NCBI GenBank assembly: GCA_012839445.1
Contig: DUNI01000189.1
Location: 1 to 49,060 of the forward strand
Source of the DNA: Bacillota bacterium
Lineage (GTDB): Bacteria; Bacillota; DTU030; DUMP01
Reading direction: 5' to 3'
Length of the DNA: 49,060 nt
The first letter of the stretch is position 1, and each line of letters opens with the position of its first letter. The notes beneath the pieces were generated by a model, which worked only from the letters and a program-made list of their open reading frames with translations, had not been told where the DNA came from and did no database searches. Positions 16,819-22,852 of this stretch are shown in pieces. The position numbers were made by a program, and so were the translations under genes.

Positions 16819-16843
16819 ACCTCATCTCGCCTGGAGGTGAGGT
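16819..16843 (+). other. Hairpin overlapping the 5' strand of riboswitch P1
   Basis: ACCTCATCTC (16819-16828), loop GCCTG, GAGGTGAGGT (16834-16843) form a continuous 10-bp stem with one G-U pair. Its 3' arm contains most of the P1 5' strand (16837-16845) of the lysine aptamer, so this hairpin and P1 cannot form together. Confidence 0.65.
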
Positions 16844-17015
16844 AGAGGTGCGGTGAACATAAGTAACCCGGCCAAGCAGGGCAGCTATGCGGCCAGGTGA
16901 AAGGGGACGCCGCCGAAGTAGGAAGTACGCACTGTGCTTTCTGCTGGGTCTGAGCCAAACAGGTTCAGAACTGTCACTGGTCGGACAAAGACCGTCCAGT
17001 GGAGCGCTATCTCAC
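16837..17015 (+). ncRNA. Lysine riboswitch (L box) upstream of lysA
   Basis: The conserved L-box blocks are present in order: GAGGTAGAGGTGCG (P1/P2 start), AAGTAA, the GTGAAAGGGGACGCCGCCGAAG block, CTGTCACTGG and GGAGCGCTATCTCAC, which closes P1 (GTGAGGTAG 16837-16845 with CTATCTCAC 17007-17015, one G-U pair). In this family lysine binding stabilises P1 and lowers expression of lysine genes. It is followed by lysA, consistent with feedback control. I see no clear intrinsic terminator between 17016 and 17125; a small dyad ATGC-AAGGAG-GCAT (17104-17117) holds the ribosome site, so control may be translational or may use the upstream hairpin. Confidence 0.95.
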
Positions 17016-17125
17016 AGAGAGGGGGATTTTAAAGGAAATGATATTGTCCCAATATGCTAAACCCTGCTTCCTAGCTTATTGATAGCCCGTTGGGGGAGAC
17101 ATTATGCAAGGAGGCATATTTATTT

Positions 17126-18463
17126 ATGAAATTACTTCAAGGTACAGCACAAATTACAAGTAGCGGTCATCTAGAAATTGGGGGCGTAAGCGCAACGGAA
17201 TTAGCAGCTCGCTATGGCACCCCACTTTATATAATGGACGAAGCCTTTATACGCAAAAACTGCCGTGCCTGGCAACAAGCTGTGGGCAATCATGGTAAGG
17301 TAGCTTATGCATCTAAGGCCTTTTGCACACTGGCCATGTGCCGCTTAGTCGATCAAGAAGGCTTATCTCTGGACGTAGTGTCCGGCGGAGAACTGGCTAC
17401 TGCCCTGGCGGCAAATTTCCCAGCAGAACGCATTTATTTCAACGGTAACAACAAAAGCCTAGAGGAAATAGAGCTAGCCGTAAGAAGCAATGTTGGCAGA
17501 GTTATTGTTGACAACTTCTATGAGCTAGAGATGTTGGAGCAAACTGCTGCGCGCTTCAAACGACCTGTTAGTATTTTGCTACGCATTTGTCCGGGTGTTG
17601 AAGCCCACACCCATGAATACGTCCAGACAGGGCAGCTAGATTCAAAATTTGGATTTACTTTGGACAATGGGCAAGCCATGTCAGCTGTAAAGGTTGCTTT
17701 AACCAAACCTCATTTGTATTTGCGTGGTATGCAATGCCATATAGGATCCCAGATTTTTGCTCTTGATGGTTTTGCAGCAGCCGGAAAAACCATGATCTCT
17801 TTCTTGGCTGACATCAAGAAAGCCACCGGGGTAATTCTAAGCGAACTGGACATGGGTGGAGGCTTAGGAATAAAATACTTACCGGAAGATAATCCTGCTC
17901 AAGTTAAAGACCTGGTTCAAACAGTGGTTCGGTCTGTACAAATGGCTTGTGCAACTAACAATTTCCCAGTACCCCAGTTAGTTTTTGAGCCTGGTCGGTC
18001 TATTGTCGGACCACCTGGCTGGGTCATTTACCGCGTTGGCGCTCGAAAGGAAATTCCCGGTATTCGCACCTATGTAGCCGTAGACGGCGGGATGGCCGAC
18101 AACCCACGGCCTGCTCTCTACGGTTCACGCTATAGTGCTTTGGTAGCCAATAAGGCTAATGCCGCCTTGGAGGAAACGGTTACTATAGCCGGCAAGTGCT
18201 GCGAATCTGGCGATATTTTGATTAAGGACATTACACTACCGCGTCTTGAGCCAGGGGATATTTTAGCCATACCCAGTGCCGGCGCTTACCAATTCTCCAT
18301 GGCCAGCAATTACAATCGTCTTTGTCGCCCAGCAGTAGTCTTTGTACGAGACGGTGAAGCCCATGTGGTGGTTGAGCGTGAGTCCATGGCCGATCTATTT
18401 CGCCACGATCTAATTCCAAAGGCCTGGGAAAAACAACAAGAACGTTTGCGCGTAGCGCGCTAA
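17126..18463 (+). CDS. lysA: Diaminopimelate decarboxylase
   Basis: A 445-residue PLP enzyme of the alanine racemase-fold decarboxylases, which converts meso-diaminopimelate to L-lysine. The PLP lysine is in VAYASKAF, followed by GGELATAL, CHIGSQI and DMGGGLGIKY. The C-terminal barrel has EPGRSIV, the substrate motif KCCESGDIL and GAYQFSMASNYN. The open frame begins with TTG 17090, but ATG 17126 is preferred: AAGGAGG (17108-17114) precedes it and MKLLQGTAQI fits the family. Expression is controlled by the lysine riboswitch just upstream. Confidence 0.95.
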   Translation: MKLLQGTAQITSSGHLEIGGVSATELAARYGTPLYIMDEAFIRKNCRAWQQAVGNHGKVAYASKAFCTLAMCRLVDQEGLSLDVVSGGELATALAANFPAERIYFNGNNKSLEEIELAVRSNVGRVIVDNFYELEMLEQTAARFKRPVSILLRICPGVEAHTHEYVQTGQLDSKFGFTLDNGQAMSAVKVALTKPHLYLRGMQCHIGSQIFALDGFAAAGKTMISFLADIKKATGVILSELDMGGGLGIKYLPEDNPAQVKDLVQTVVRSVQMACATNNFPVPQLVFEPGRSIVGPPGWVIYRVGARKEIPGIRTYVAVDGGMADNPRPALYGSRYSALVANKANAALEETVTIAGKCCESGDILIKDITLPRLEPGDILAIPSAGAYQFSMASNYNRLCRPAVVFVRDGEAHVVVERESMADLFRHDLIPKAWEKQQERLRVAR

Positions 18464-18484
18464 TTTGTCCTGGATTATGATTTC

Positions 18485-18513
18485 TTGACAATGCTTTGTC
18501 ACCATGATAATAT
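18485..18513 (+). promoter_or_regulatory. Promoter of the RNase P RNA gene
   Basis: TTGACA (18485-18490), a 17-base spacer and TAATAT (18508-18513), starting 22 bases after the lysA stop. It should give an RNA with a leader of about 25 bases before the mature 5' end near 18546. Confidence 0.8.
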
Positions 18514-18545
18514 GAATATCCTAATTGAAAATAACAAGTCCTTTT

Positions 18546-18893
18546 GTGCGTAGGCCAGATGACCGCGGGCACAGGGCCGCAAGGCCGTGTTCGAGGAAAG
18601 TCCGGGCTCCATAGGGCAAGGTGCTGGCTAACGGCCAGTAGGGGCAACCCTAAGGAAAGTGCCACAGAAATGAAAACCACCGCCATAAAGCGGCAAGGGT
18701 GCAACGGTGAGGTAAGAACTCACCAGCGGTCAGGTGACTGGCCGGCTAGGTAAACCCCACCTGGAGCAAGACCTAATAGGAGGAGCATGACGCGGCCCGC
18801 CGACTCCTCGGGTAGGTTGCACGAGGCGCTAGGCAACTAGCGTCCCAGACAGATGGTCATCCATGACAGAACCCGGCTTACAGGCCTGCGCAC
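18546..18893 (+). ncRNA. rnpB: RNase P RNA, class A
   Basis: The conserved 5' block CGAGGAAAGTCCGGGCTCC, the ACAGAAATGAAAACCACC region, GGTAAACCCCACC with GAGCAAGACC and the 3' block ACAGAACCCGGCTTACAGGCC are all present. Helix P1 closes the molecule: GTGCGTAGGCC (18546-18556) pairs with GGCCTGCGCAC (18883-18893) with one wobble. It is the catalytic RNA that trims the 5' ends of tRNA precursors. It has its own promoter and an intrinsic terminator. Confidence 0.97.
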
Positions 18894-18897
18894 TATG

Positions 18898-19009: not shown

Positions 19010-20218
19010 TTAAACATGAGGGCTCCTAAGTAATGCCTGGCTTTTTTTAGGTGGCCATAAACTAATATCGCTTTTAGACAGGATGTAAACAATCATAAAA
19101 CACACCATAATAGCCACTGCAGCTGCAACAAAAATCATCTTTATCCCTAGTATTTTTCCTATTTTCCCTAGAAGCAGTGGTGCCATTAATGAAGATAAGC
19201 GATTAGCAAACATCCTTACACCCATAGCCAAACCGCGTTCTCCGTCGGTGGCTGCTTGGCTTGCCAAAGCCATGGTTATTGGCTGGGCCATACCAAAACC
19301 TACTCCGCCAAGTCCCATAACTAAAGATAGTAACCATGCCGACTTAAACAAAGGTGTAAGCATAGCACTAGCAGCACAGGCCACTAATGCAAGAAGAAGT
19401 ACAGGAGCTGTTCCGTACCGGCTACGCCAACTAACAATAAACGGGCGGATCGCTGTTTCTGCCGCCCCTTGAATCGTAAGTAGCATGCCAATTAGTGGCG
19501 CATCCAAGCTCACCTCATCAAAATAGACAGAATAGAAAGACGTGCGCATACTATATAAAAAAATGATACCAAATATCCCCAGTAAACTAATAATATAGCT
19601 TGGCCTTCGGAGCAAAGCCTGGATGTTCTGTTTTGTCATATCCAAACTATTACTTGTTTCAAGCTTTGGTTTACTCGGCTTAATTTCTCGAGCTAAAGGG
19701 GCCAACGGCACCATGAGTAATGCAAGAAAAGCTGACACCATAAATAAGGTATTGTAACCAAAATTCTTCGCTATAACGCCTCCTAAAGGTGGTCCCACTA
19801 GCTGCCCCACACAACCGTAAAAGCCGTAGATGGCAAAGTTCCGGTACACGACATTACTATCACCCATACTGGCAATTGTTACCTGGCTGGCAACTGACTG
19901 TAACACATGGAAGAGGCCCAGTGCTGCCAAGGCAATCGCCAAAAAATGAATGGTTCTGGAAACATACAGGGCGTAAGAAGCTATGGCAACTCCAGTGCTG
20001 CTAATTATAAAGACTTTTCGTGTCCCTGCTCGATCGCAAACAACACCTGTTGGAACCGCAAAAATCATGGGTAAAATAGCGTATGCTGCCATTATTAAGC
20101 CGATGGTATCTGTTCCCGCACCCTGGGCCTTAGCCACCAGAGCTATGTAAGGGGATATCAAATGCCAAGAAATAAAATGTAAAAAGGCAACGATGCTAAT
20201 CACTGTTAACTGACTCAT
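19010..20218 (-). CDS. Major facilitator superfamily transporter
   Basis: A 402-residue membrane protein with about 12 hydrophobic segments in two halves separated by a hydrophilic loop near residues 175-210. The loop after helix 2 reads GVVCDRAGTRKVF, a good match to the MFS GxxxDRxGRR signature, and the equivalent region of the second half (RPFIVSWRSRYGTAPVL) fits too. Drug or sugar export are common roles; the substrate is unknown. The start ATG follows GAAGGAGAAGAAC and overlaps the end of the RNase HI-cupin gene by 23 bp, so the two are probably translated together. Confidence 0.85.
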   Translation of the reverse strand: MSQLTVISIVAFLHFISWHLISPYIALVAKAQGAGTDTIGLIMAAYAILPMIFAVPTGVVCDRAGTRKVFIISSTGVAIASYALYVSRTIHFLAIALAALGLFHVLQSVASQVTIASMGDSNVVYRNFAIYGFYGCVGQLVGPPLGGVIAKNFGYNTLFMVSAFLALLMVPLAPLAREIKPSKPKLETSNSLDMTKQNIQALLRRPSYIISLLGIFGIIFLYSMRTSFYSVYFDEVSLDAPLIGMLLTIQGAAETAIRPFIVSWRSRYGTAPVLLLALVACAASAMLTPLFKSAWLLSLVMGLGGVGFGMAQPITMALASQAATDGERGLAMGVRMFANRLSSLMAPLLLGKIGKILGIKMIFVAAAVAIMVCFMIVYILSKSDISLWPPKKSQALLRSPHV

Positions 20219-20993
20219 GTTCTTCTCCTTCGGGATTAGGTATTCGGCCCACTAAAACTTTTAACGGTTTTTCACCTGCAACCTTAATCATGTGGTGGGC
20301 ATGCCTGGGAACAAAAACAGTTTCACCTGCCTTCATATCAATTTCTTCTTCTAAAACAACCATGCAGCCGTTACCAGATAGCACATGGAAAAAGGTATCC
20401 GTGTCGCTCTTATGACAAGACAACTCCGATCCCGGATTGATTACAGCCTGGATTAAGAGTACCTGCGGCACAGACAAAAGTCGCTGTGACTTGGGTTCCT
20501 CAGAGGAAGTATCCATAATTTCCGGAGACATTTTGGTAACCTTCATTCCGGTACCCTTGCACAGAGCTTCTTTGGTTAGGGGAGTTTCCTTACGGGCCAT
20601 TTTATCCAAGGCTCTGTTAGCCAACTCGTCGGCAGAGGCATTTTTTTCTCGTGGTACATGCACAAAAGAAACATCGCGAAAAACACGGACCAGATCTTGG
20701 GCTTGATTATAAAGCGGTAGCAAACCCGGATGCCGAACACGATACTCTCTGTTCATTTGTCTAATCATAAGTTGCGAATCGCCATAAATGAGCAAGCTCT
20801 CAGCACCAAGCCGTTCTGCTTCCTTCAACCCTCTCAACAAAGCCTTGTACTCGGCTACATTGTTGGTGGCTTGGCCGATATACTCGCTTACTTGTGCCAA
20901 TACCGTTCCGTCTTCATCCGCAATTACCACACCGATAGCGGCAGGGCCTGGATTACCACGGGAAGCACCATCAATATGAAGAATAGCCCTCAT
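20196..20993 (-). CDS. RNase HI domain fused to a C-terminal cupin domain
   Basis: A 265-residue two-domain protein. Residues 1-130 are an RNase HI of the short bacterial/archaeal type: Asp8 (HIDGASRGNPG), Glu48 (NNVAEYKAL), Asp72 (YGDSQ) and Asp122 (NASADELAN) give the full catalytic set, which would cut RNA in RNA-DNA hybrids. After a linker of about 40 residues, residues 172-255 form a cupin barrel: PGSELSCHKSDTD..LSGNG resembles motif 1 and AGETVFVPRHAHH motif 2. Only some metal ligands (His194, His234) are retained, so it may sense a ligand rather than catalyse. The fusion is unusual. It lies after nif3 and overlaps the MFS gene. Confidence 0.85.
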   Translation of the reverse strand: MRAILHIDGASRGNPGPAAIGVVIADEDGTVLAQVSEYIGQATNNVAEYKALLRGLKEAERLGAESLLIYGDSQLMIRQMNREYRVRHPGLLPLYNQAQDLVRVFRDVSFVHVPREKNASADELANRALDKMARKETPLTKEALCKGTGMKVTKMSPEIMDTSSEEPKSQRLLSVPQVLLIQAVINPGSELSCHKSDTDTFFHVLSGNGCMVVLEEEIDMKAGETVFVPRHAHHMIKVAGEKPLKVLVGRIPNPEGEEHESVNSD

Positions 20994-21084: not shown

Positions 21085-22194
21085 TTAGATGATCCGGAAA
21101 ACCGGTGGCGCAATGTAAGTATGAACGTCTACTTGGCGATCGTTGAGTTTATCAGCCAAATAATTAGCCAGCATTAGCACCACTGGGTTCTCTGTACCAT
21201 CATGCCCGCCATCGACAACACTTAGGCCAATCAGCTCCGCTTCCAACGCATCGTGATATTTTACATCACCGGTCACCAAAACATCTGCTCCCACAAATTT
21301 GGCCCGACCTATCAGTGAAGAACCACTCCCCCCGCAAACGGCCACTCTTGTGATCTGTTTATTTTCATCTCCCACAACATTGACTGAAGGAAGACCTAGA
21401 ACTTTCTTAACTGTTTTAGCAAACTCAGTCAAAGACATGCTCTGGGGCAACTCACCCACAAGGCCTAAGCCATAAGATCGTCCTTCCCGCGCCAAGGGAT
21501 AAATATCGTACGCCACCTCTTCGTAAGGATGGGCTGATAACAATCGGCTTACTGCTTTTCCGAGATTTTCCTCCGGAACCACAGTCTCTAACCGCAGTTC
21601 ATCGACATATTCCATTGTTCCTTGGTGGCCTATGTAAGGCTTGGTACCCTCTAAGGGCATAAAAGTTCCAGTTCCGGCTACCTGAAAGGTGCAATGACTA
21701 TAATTGCCAATCCACCCTGCTCCAGCCGCAGCCAGCGCTTGACGAACATTTTCCACATGGGATGATGGGACGAAGCTCACTAACTTGTATAACTTCTGTC
21801 CTTGATCGGGAGCCAAAATTTCATTGTTTATAAGCCCCAGTTTCTGTGCCAATACATCCGATGTTCCTTTTGATGCTTTATCTAAATTAGTGTGGGCTGA
21901 ATATACACCTATATTAGCCCGCAAAAACTTTGCCACTAATTGTTCGCTCGGCAAATCCAACCGTAAGTGTTTCAACGGCCGAAAGAATAACGGATGATGA
22001 GTAACTAAAAGCTGCGCTCCTAATTGCTCAGCTTTTGTCAGAGCACCAGGAGAAGGATCCAGGGATACCAGCACCGTTGTCACCTGATTCCGGCTATCCC
22101 CCACTTGCCAACCTACATTGTCCCAATCCTCGGCTAAATGTCTCGGAGCTAGTTTTTCAATTAGGTTAGCTACGTAGCTTCCATTGACAGACAT
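21085..22194 (-). CDS. Nif3/YqfO-family dinuclear metal protein
   Basis: A 369-residue Nif3-like protein, often annotated as GTP cyclohydrolase I type 2 homologue. Metal-binding histidines are in LLVTHHPLFF (N-terminal half) and in VDGGHDGTENPVV (C-terminal half). The length matches the Gram-positive YqfO subgroup, which carries a PII-like middle domain (here about residues 125-235, LYKLVSFVPSSHVENVRQAL). The true biochemical role of the family is unsettled. Start ATG 22194 was chosen because GGAGGGAG precedes it; it overlaps the end of trmK by 29 bp, the standard trmK-nif3 arrangement. Confidence 0.9.
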   Translation of the reverse strand: MSVNGSYVANLIEKLAPRHLAEDWDNVGWQVGDSRNQVTTVLVSLDPSPGALTKAEQLGAQLLVTHHPLFFRPLKHLRLDLPSEQLVAKFLRANIGVYSAHTNLDKASKGTSDVLAQKLGLINNEILAPDQGQKLYKLVSFVPSSHVENVRQALAAAGAGWIGNYSHCTFQVAGTGTFMPLEGTKPYIGHQGTMEYVDELRLETVVPEENLGKAVSRLLSAHPYEEVAYDIYPLAREGRSYGLGLVGELPQSMSLTEFAKTVKKVLGLPSVNVVGDENKQITRVAVCGGSGSSLIGRAKFVGADVLVTGDVKYHDALEAELIGLSVVDGGHDGTENPVVLMLANYLADKLNDRQVDVHTYIAPPVFRII

Positions 22195-22852
22195 ATAACA
22201 TCTCCCTCCAGGCATTAATCCTGTGACTGGCTAATTCTGATCGCGCCCTAGCAGCGGCACTCTTGGCAAAACAGGTCTTGGCCCGCACCTTTTTTTCTTG
22301 CTCGATCCTATAAGTCAGATATGCGGGTAACATTGGATCTGGATGGGCCGCCAGGTAGGGCCCTATCTCCAGCAATTCTTCCGGAAAAGCAGGCATAGTG
22401 CCCGGTGTTGCTACCATGGTCACGTAAAAGCGTCCCTTATCAAGAACCAACTTCTCATCTTTGAGTGTTAATCCCAGGCTTGTTAGTCGGCGACGCAAAT
22501 CCCCTGGCTTTGTCATAGGCTGAAGCAAAAAAGCCTGGGCCGAAGTGGCCACCTCCGGTTCCAGGGCAACGATATCCGCTATAGTTGTGGAGCCTAAGCC
22601 AGCAATAACCACTATCTCGGCTTCTCCAGGGGTTAACACTGAAAGTCCTGAGCCTAATCGCAGTGAAATTCTTTCCTCCAGTCCTGCAGCTGTCACGGCT
22701 TGTCGGGCTGACTCTAAGCTACCCGGACTGATATCTGCGGCAACAGCCCGCATTACTTGTCCTGACTGAACCAAGTATATGGGCAAATATGCATGGTCAG
22801 TGCCGATATCAGCTACCACTACGCCTGGTGGTACCAAAGTGGCCAAGGCCAT
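22166..22852 (-). CDS. trmK: tRNA (adenine-22-N1) methyltransferase
   Basis: A TrmK-family SAM methyltransferase that makes m1A22 in tRNA. Motifs are VVADIGTDHAYLPIYL (SAM loop), AVAADISPGSLESARQ, IAGLGSTTIADIV and LQPMTKPGDLRRRL. The first standard start (22852) has no ribosome site and cuts off the conserved helix KLPPRLMALA that family members begin with. The frame stays open upstream to a stop at 22904-22906, with no ATG, GTG or TTG. An ATC codon at 22898-22900 with AGGTGA six bases before it, or the next codon CTG, is a plausible real start. An out-of-frame ATG lies at 22905-22907. It is co-directional with rpoD, as in Bacillus. Confidence 0.88.
   Translation of the reverse strand: MALATLVPPGVVVADIGTDHAYLPIYLVQSGQVMRAVAADISPGSLESARQAVTAAGLEERISLRLGSGLSVLTPGEAEIVVIAGLGSTTIADIVALEPEVATSAQAFLLQPMTKPGDLRRRLTSLGLTLKDEKLVLDKGRFYVTMVATPGTMPAFPEELLEIGPYLAAHPDPMLPAYLTYRIEQEKKVRAKTCFAKSAAARARSELASHRINAWREMLYVCQWKLRS

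Follow-up and report, generated by a model that had tools for sequence, protein, structure and literature searches.

The window, by which we mean the whole stretch of 49,060 nucleotides analysed here (contig C174 of the genome labelled G000), contains a gene in which an RNase HI and a cupin are read as one protein (Table 1). It lies downstream of trmK, a NIF3/DUF34 gene and rpoD, and its end overlaps the start of an MFS transporter gene whose likely ribosome-binding site falls within the cupin codons. A sequence-only reading of this DNA had given exactly these coordinates, leaving the strand unstated, and had located D8, E48, D72, D122, H194 and H234 where we find them. Its description of an RNase HI continuous with a C-terminal cupin also stands, since both domains of the single frame score far above their Pfam cut-offs.

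RVT_3 matches residues 7-128 (96.6 bits, cut-off 21.6) and RNase_H residues 4-128 (41.9 bits, cut-off 25.8). Cupin_2 (PF07883; residues 184-248, 43.0 bits, cut-off 27.2) is the only Pfam domain found in the C-terminal half, where no CobC or histidine phosphatase domain was detected. An AlphaFold2 single-sequence model of the protein had a mean pLDDT of 46, with values of about 28-36 in the cupin part. A profile search of G000 returned one RVT_3 match and one RNase HII match; the fusion is thus the sole RNase HI found in this genome, is RnhC/Rv2228c-like, and sits within a conserved trmK-nif3-rnh neighbourhood.

Table 1. Positions of the fusion gene, its parts and its neighbours in the window, and of related genes at other loci
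Feature	Position	Strand	Remark
RNase HI-cupin fusion ORF, 265 aa	20196..20993	-	single ATG-to-TAG frame
RNase HI domain, residues 1-130	20604..20993	-	Pfam RVT_3 96.6 bits; D8/E48/D72/D122 intact
Linker, residues 131-149	20547..20603	-	outline common to G002
Cupin domain, residues 150-265	20199..20546	-	Cupin_2 43 bits; M150 aligns by eye with start Met of stand-alone family cupins
H194, first of two family-conserved His	20412..20414	-	Q in G002
H234, second of two family-conserved His	20292..20294	-	G in G002
AAGGAG inside cupin codons	20225..20230	-	likely MFS-gene ribosome-binding site
MFS transporter	19010..20218	-	ATG at 20218; 23-nt overlap with fusion gene
NIF3/DUF34 gene	21085..22215	-	conserved upstream neighbour of RNase HI
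trmK	22166..22852	-	upstream of NIF3/DUF34 gene
RNase P RNA (rnpB)	18547..18896	+	inverted, beyond MFS gene
Pseudo-RNase H-cupin loci	L077:3311-4042, L073:3877-4608, L074:3472-4212, L075:3968-4723		three of four carboxylates lost, cupin motif intact
Pseudo-RNase H-cupin, further loci	L076:3856-4602, L078:241-972, L126:4410-5192, L079:3358-4137		as for L077
Third combination, G100	L090:2246-3094		catalytically complete RNase HI with intact HxHxHEQ cupin
RNase HI-SWIM zinc finger	L085:2071-2667, L086:1941-2558, L080:2710-3366

RNase P RNA lies directly downstream of RNase HI, no more than about 500 nt away and encoded on the same strand, in 25 of the 41 genomes scanned (a hand count), across distant families; loci with this neighbourhood include L018, L021, L073, L077, L124 and L137. 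The RNA is inverted and further off in five of the 41 (G000, G001, G003, G004 and G007). In the other 11, of which several had short flanks, the sequence scanned did not contain it. Similar-looking ORFs that overlap the RNase P RNA on the other strand (window 18231-18704, minus strand; L045:7415-7990; L076:4847-5182) are likely spurious translations. A lysine riboswitch (window 16835-17017) precedes a lysA-like gene (17090-18463), the latter named from its sequence by eye.

The locus and its cupin among relatives

Relatives were searched for in 61 genomes. G001 and G002 are the other two genomes of the window's genus, and g2 (G003, G006 and G007) and g3 (G004) are other genera of its family. 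G002 carries the same in-frame RNase HI-cupin junction, 52% identical over residues 1-234, after which its contig ends, and the linker is recognisably common to both genomes. The contig-cut cupin of G002 scores 26.4 bits against Cupin_2, just below the cut-off. In G001 there is no cupin, and the RNase HI runs straight up to the same MFS gene. A solo RNase HI followed by the MFS gene is also present in G004, where the RNase HI is split over two contig ends; in g2 the gene after the solo RNase HI is for an Rrf2-type regulator (named by eye), and next comes a DUF438-hemerythrin-cupin gene. Neither the relatives search nor a profile search found an RNase HI match in G005. A further search of genome contigs for related loci gave eight, and every match fell within residues 1-150, the nuclease half and its immediate continuation.

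The MFS protein was detected in three of the nine genomes searched (G000, G001 and G004), the latter two without the cupin, and no MFS match at E 1e-40 was found in G002, where the fusion is present. RNase HI and MFS genes can be neighbours where there is no fusion, and their adjacency does not follow the distribution of the fusion.

The two halves of the protein diverge at very different rates. Between G000 and G002, 87 of 130 nuclease residues are identical (66.9%) as against 29 of 86 in the cupin (33.7%); NIF3 keeps 271 of 376 residues and RpoD 346 of 365. For codon positions 1/2/3 the nuclease gives distances of 0.354/0.092/0.523 and the cupin 0.477/0.384/0.581, and from these values and the identities we conclude that the cupin is much less constrained. 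NG86 dN/dS for the same pair is 0.63/1.56 in the cupin, dS being saturated in the nuclease. Yet a neutral, substitution-only simulation left the cupin frame open in just 1.2% of 5000 runs, and the frame is open in two widely diverged genomes; there must still be some constraint, on the fold at a minimum.

In a DnaG tree of nine genomes, G000 is sister to the pair of G002 and G001 (91/93, not starred; 100/99 for the inner pair), and a grouping of G000 with G002 without G001 is rejected (p-AU 2.8e-6). Given this branching order, the simplest reading is that the cupin would have been gained once in the genus and then lost in G001. The order within the genus comes from one gene, DnaG; the short RNase H tree gives a different order of the three genomes, with weak support.

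The window cupin belongs to a 21-row clade that includes 19 non-fused cupins (support 100/100 in the cupin tree). Members of this clade stand alone, some of them adjoining rubrerythrin (L103, L104 and L109, named from sequence by eye), lie downstream of Rrf2-type (named by eye) and DUF438-hemerythrin genes (L105 and L106) or, in g2, are fused to DUF438-hemerythrin. Two motifs, H.TPVDV and [IM]PH[GAS], and only these two, occur in all 19 of the non-fused family members in the set, and H194 and H234 correspond to their histidines. Canonical cupin metal ligands follow the pattern HxH...E...H, and metal is not bound by every cupin. The window cupin is without this full set and has the two histidines only; G002 has neither, with Q and G instead. 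The sequence-only reading was right that only part of a metal site is kept, but because the two histidines match motifs found throughout the non-fused members, the partial site is the family's own.

By eye, M150 aligns with the start methionine of the stand-alone family cupins, which suggests that the fusion may have arisen by loss of a stop codon separating two adjacent genes. The corresponding codon in G002 is ATA, so stop-codon loss is best kept as a suggestion, and we rejected M150 as a vestigial internal start conserved across the fusions. The hemerythrin-cupin of g2 as a proven direct source of the tail was likewise rejected: a test of grouping the g2 cupins with those of the window and G002 gave p-AU 0.479, which speaks neither for nor against such a clade. 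The DUF438-hemerythrin-cupin combination (L039:3562-4689, L105:1818-3004 and L106:907-2195), behind an Rrf2-type regulator, takes the form of one gene in g2 and of two adjoining genes in G325 and G304.

RNase H fused to a second type of cupin

A sample of 398 genomes of the phylum was searched, of which 114 were matched by the window protein at E 1e-8. The close look took in the long-frame RNase H matches and those in the fetched loci, a part of these 114, and it may miss fusions to yet another kind of cupin that neither query covers. An RNase H-cupin span, with domains checked, is present in ten of the 398: G000, G002 and eight genomes with a different cupin, which we call type II (G023, G069, G100, G107, G193, G217 with two copies, G241 and G287). 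The architecture thus has a wider taxonomic spread than the window's genus, with two cupin types. In the class of G217, to which we refer as f13/f55, seven of ten genomes have the fusion; G140 (99% complete), G169 and G264, of the same class, gave no RVT_3 match. The whole trmK-nif3-Zn ribbon-RNase H-cupin block is present twice in G217 (L073 and L074, on contigs C24 and C23), through duplication or mixed strains.

All type II fusions lie downstream of trmK, nif3 and a Zn-ribbon gene, and their cupins form a clade separate from that of the window cupin (100/100). Uniting all 11 fusion cupins in one clade is rejected (p-AU 0.00012), so RNase H-cupin fusions appear to have originated two or more times, in each case at this nif3 locus. 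Descent of both types from one gene that was already fused, most lineages having later lost the cupin, would account for the shared slot downstream of nif3 and the shared domain order, but faces both the two well-separated clades and the rejected joint one, and we consider it highly doubtful; a swap of one cupin for another within an already fused gene is possible. For the type II fusions, G100 together with f13/f55, the tests (p-AU 0.337 and 0.172) do not decide for or against one shared origin. When the G100 fusion was compared by tblastn with plasmids (322 records) and phages (8 records), no record covered 80% of the query.

We compared catalytic sites across 58 RNase H rows (57 and the window), dropping six: L080, L091, L092, L036 and L038, which are divergent, and L001, which repeats the window. 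L092 has DEDN in place of DEDD. In the 44 live rows each of the four carboxylates is unchanged where the row includes it (D8 in 42 of 42, the others in 44 of 44). All eight f13/f55 rows have lost D8, E48 and D122, and all eight keep D72, N45, Q79 and N118. N45 and Q79 may correspond to hybrid minor-groove contacts of known RNases HI, a match on which a literature search found nothing. Within f13/f55 (seven sequences), every pair compared is more conserved in the cupin than in the nuclease half, and H220, H222, H224, E225 and H260 (G100 numbering) are invariant in eight of eight type II rows. G100 itself keeps both DEDD and the cupin motif. RNase HII was present in 12 of the 13 genomes checked, the exception being G100, which is 85% complete.

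These patterns indicate that in f13/f55 a separately arisen pairing has probably outlived its nuclease site, while in the window's genus it is instead the cupin that seems to decay. We suggest tentatively, as a possibility that may well prove wrong, that the RNase HI of the nif3-rnh-rnpB locus is a site of repeated cupin capture, and that the f13/f55 proteins are a new kind of pseudo-RNase H-cupin that would bind hybrids or structured RNA without cutting, the cupin reading a metal or metabolite, perhaps together with the RNase P RNA encoded directly downstream. As a candidate for a protein that binds hybrids or RNA without cutting them, the pseudo-RNase H-cupin is open to testing.

The cupin tail and known systems

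We propose that the window protein is an RnhC-type RNase HI that in all likelihood, as predicted from its residues, can still cut the RNA strand of RNA-DNA hybrids. In an ancestor of the genus, a gene for a two-histidine cupin of the rubrerythrin/hemerythrin-associated kind would have come between the RNase HI and MFS genes, and the stop codon between RNase HI and cupin would then have been lost. The tail may now be a tolerated folded appendage, perhaps serving stability or dimerisation, with no conserved metal site, fast evolving and, given its absence from G001, presumably dispensable. We hold this account, of a working nuclease with a passive captured tail, to be probable, with moderate confidence. 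Counting against this account are the cupin frame kept open in two genomes, the genus order taken from one gene and the missing end of the G002 cupin. The conserved cupin of the type II fusions, which arose independently, also suggests that the pairing can be useful.

The sequence-only reading had suggested other roles. A ligand-sensing cupin tuning hybrid removal, or more broadly a regulatory domain adjusting hybrid cleavage to a ligand or redox state, would fit the neighbourhoods of its closest families, which adjoin rubrerythrin-like or DUF438-hemerythrin genes (L103-L106 and L109) or, in g2, are fused to the latter; such neighbours presumably mark an oxygen/ROS setting. It would also fit the frame kept open in two genomes and the unrelated cupin, with an intact metal site, joined elsewhere to the same kind of RNase HI. 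We nevertheless consider it unlikely, since G002 has lost both family histidines, divergence is much quicker in the cupin than in the nuclease, and G001 does without a cupin. That the protein was recruited to work with the overlapping MFS transporter in some small-molecule function, as the 23-nt overlap and the ribosome-binding site within the fusion gene might suggest, deserves very little credence: G001 and G004 have the same gene order and no cupin, G002 gave no MFS match at E 1e-40, and the nuclease residues are intact.

An error of sequencing or assembly that joined two ORFs had also been envisaged, to be exposed by separate genes in relatives. G000 is a draft of 254 contigs, and g2 does have the domains in separate genes, although with an Rrf2-type gene between the solo RNase HI and the DUF438-hemerythrin-cupin gene; this arrangement hints at a route by which the fusion may have originated rather than at an error. 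The independent genome G002 has the same in-frame junction and a similar linker in a copy cut at residue 234, and G+C is even across the junction, so we regard an artefact as extremely unlikely. The window protein is a real new architecture, a probably active RNase HI whose acquired, fast-evolving cupin most likely has no sensing role. The sequence-only reading knew of no RNase HI-cupin fusion, and we too found no publication on such a protein in openly accessible full texts.

Several known or related proteins share parts of this design. Stand-alone RnhC-type RNases HI in the phylum sample have the catalytic residues and trmK-nif3 neighbourhood of the window protein; they are without a cupin, and in most of those scanned rnpB follows directly. 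RNase HI-SWIM zinc finger proteins (L080, L085 and L086) also combine RVT_3 with a C-terminal add-on, a SWIM finger instead of a cupin, and neither nif3 nor trmK was found alongside these three loci. In the DUF438-hemerythrin-cupin proteins of g2, encoded about 2 kb downstream of the solo RNase HI, the cupin is of the same clade as that of the window (31-33% identical), its partner is a hemerythrin, and it keeps its own two histidines and the TPVDV motif. Type II proteins (G100; f13 and f55) match the window in domain order and in the slot below nif3, but their cupin is of the other clade, with HxHxHEQ...H intact.

The closest characterised relatives are Rv2228c and MSMEG_4305 (RnhC), which are of the same RNase HI lineage (best PDB match 3hst, Rv2228c, 123.3 bits) and likewise carry an N-terminal RNase HI with an extra C-terminal domain, CobC where the window protein has a cupin. 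The best NCBIfam match, PRK07238 (bifunctional RNase H/acid phosphatase), reaches 157.9 bits over residues 1-156, well short of its cut-off of 326, and covers only model positions 2-157 of 378, which places the protein outside that family. In Mycobacterium smegmatis, where RNase HI as a class is reported to be essential (PMC4429107), removal of CobC from MSMEG_4305 has little effect on growth or on the amount of hybrids, and drift is the explanation that the authors prefer (PMC7466739). The same source reports that the CobC domain of Rv2228c affects RNase activity in vitro, so a tail of this kind can matter. RNase HI-CobC in actinobacteria has thus been put down to drift. With the same kind of nuclease apparently joined to cupins at least twice, and opposite halves decaying, the cupin fusions offer a natural comparison of accident and function in such add-ons.
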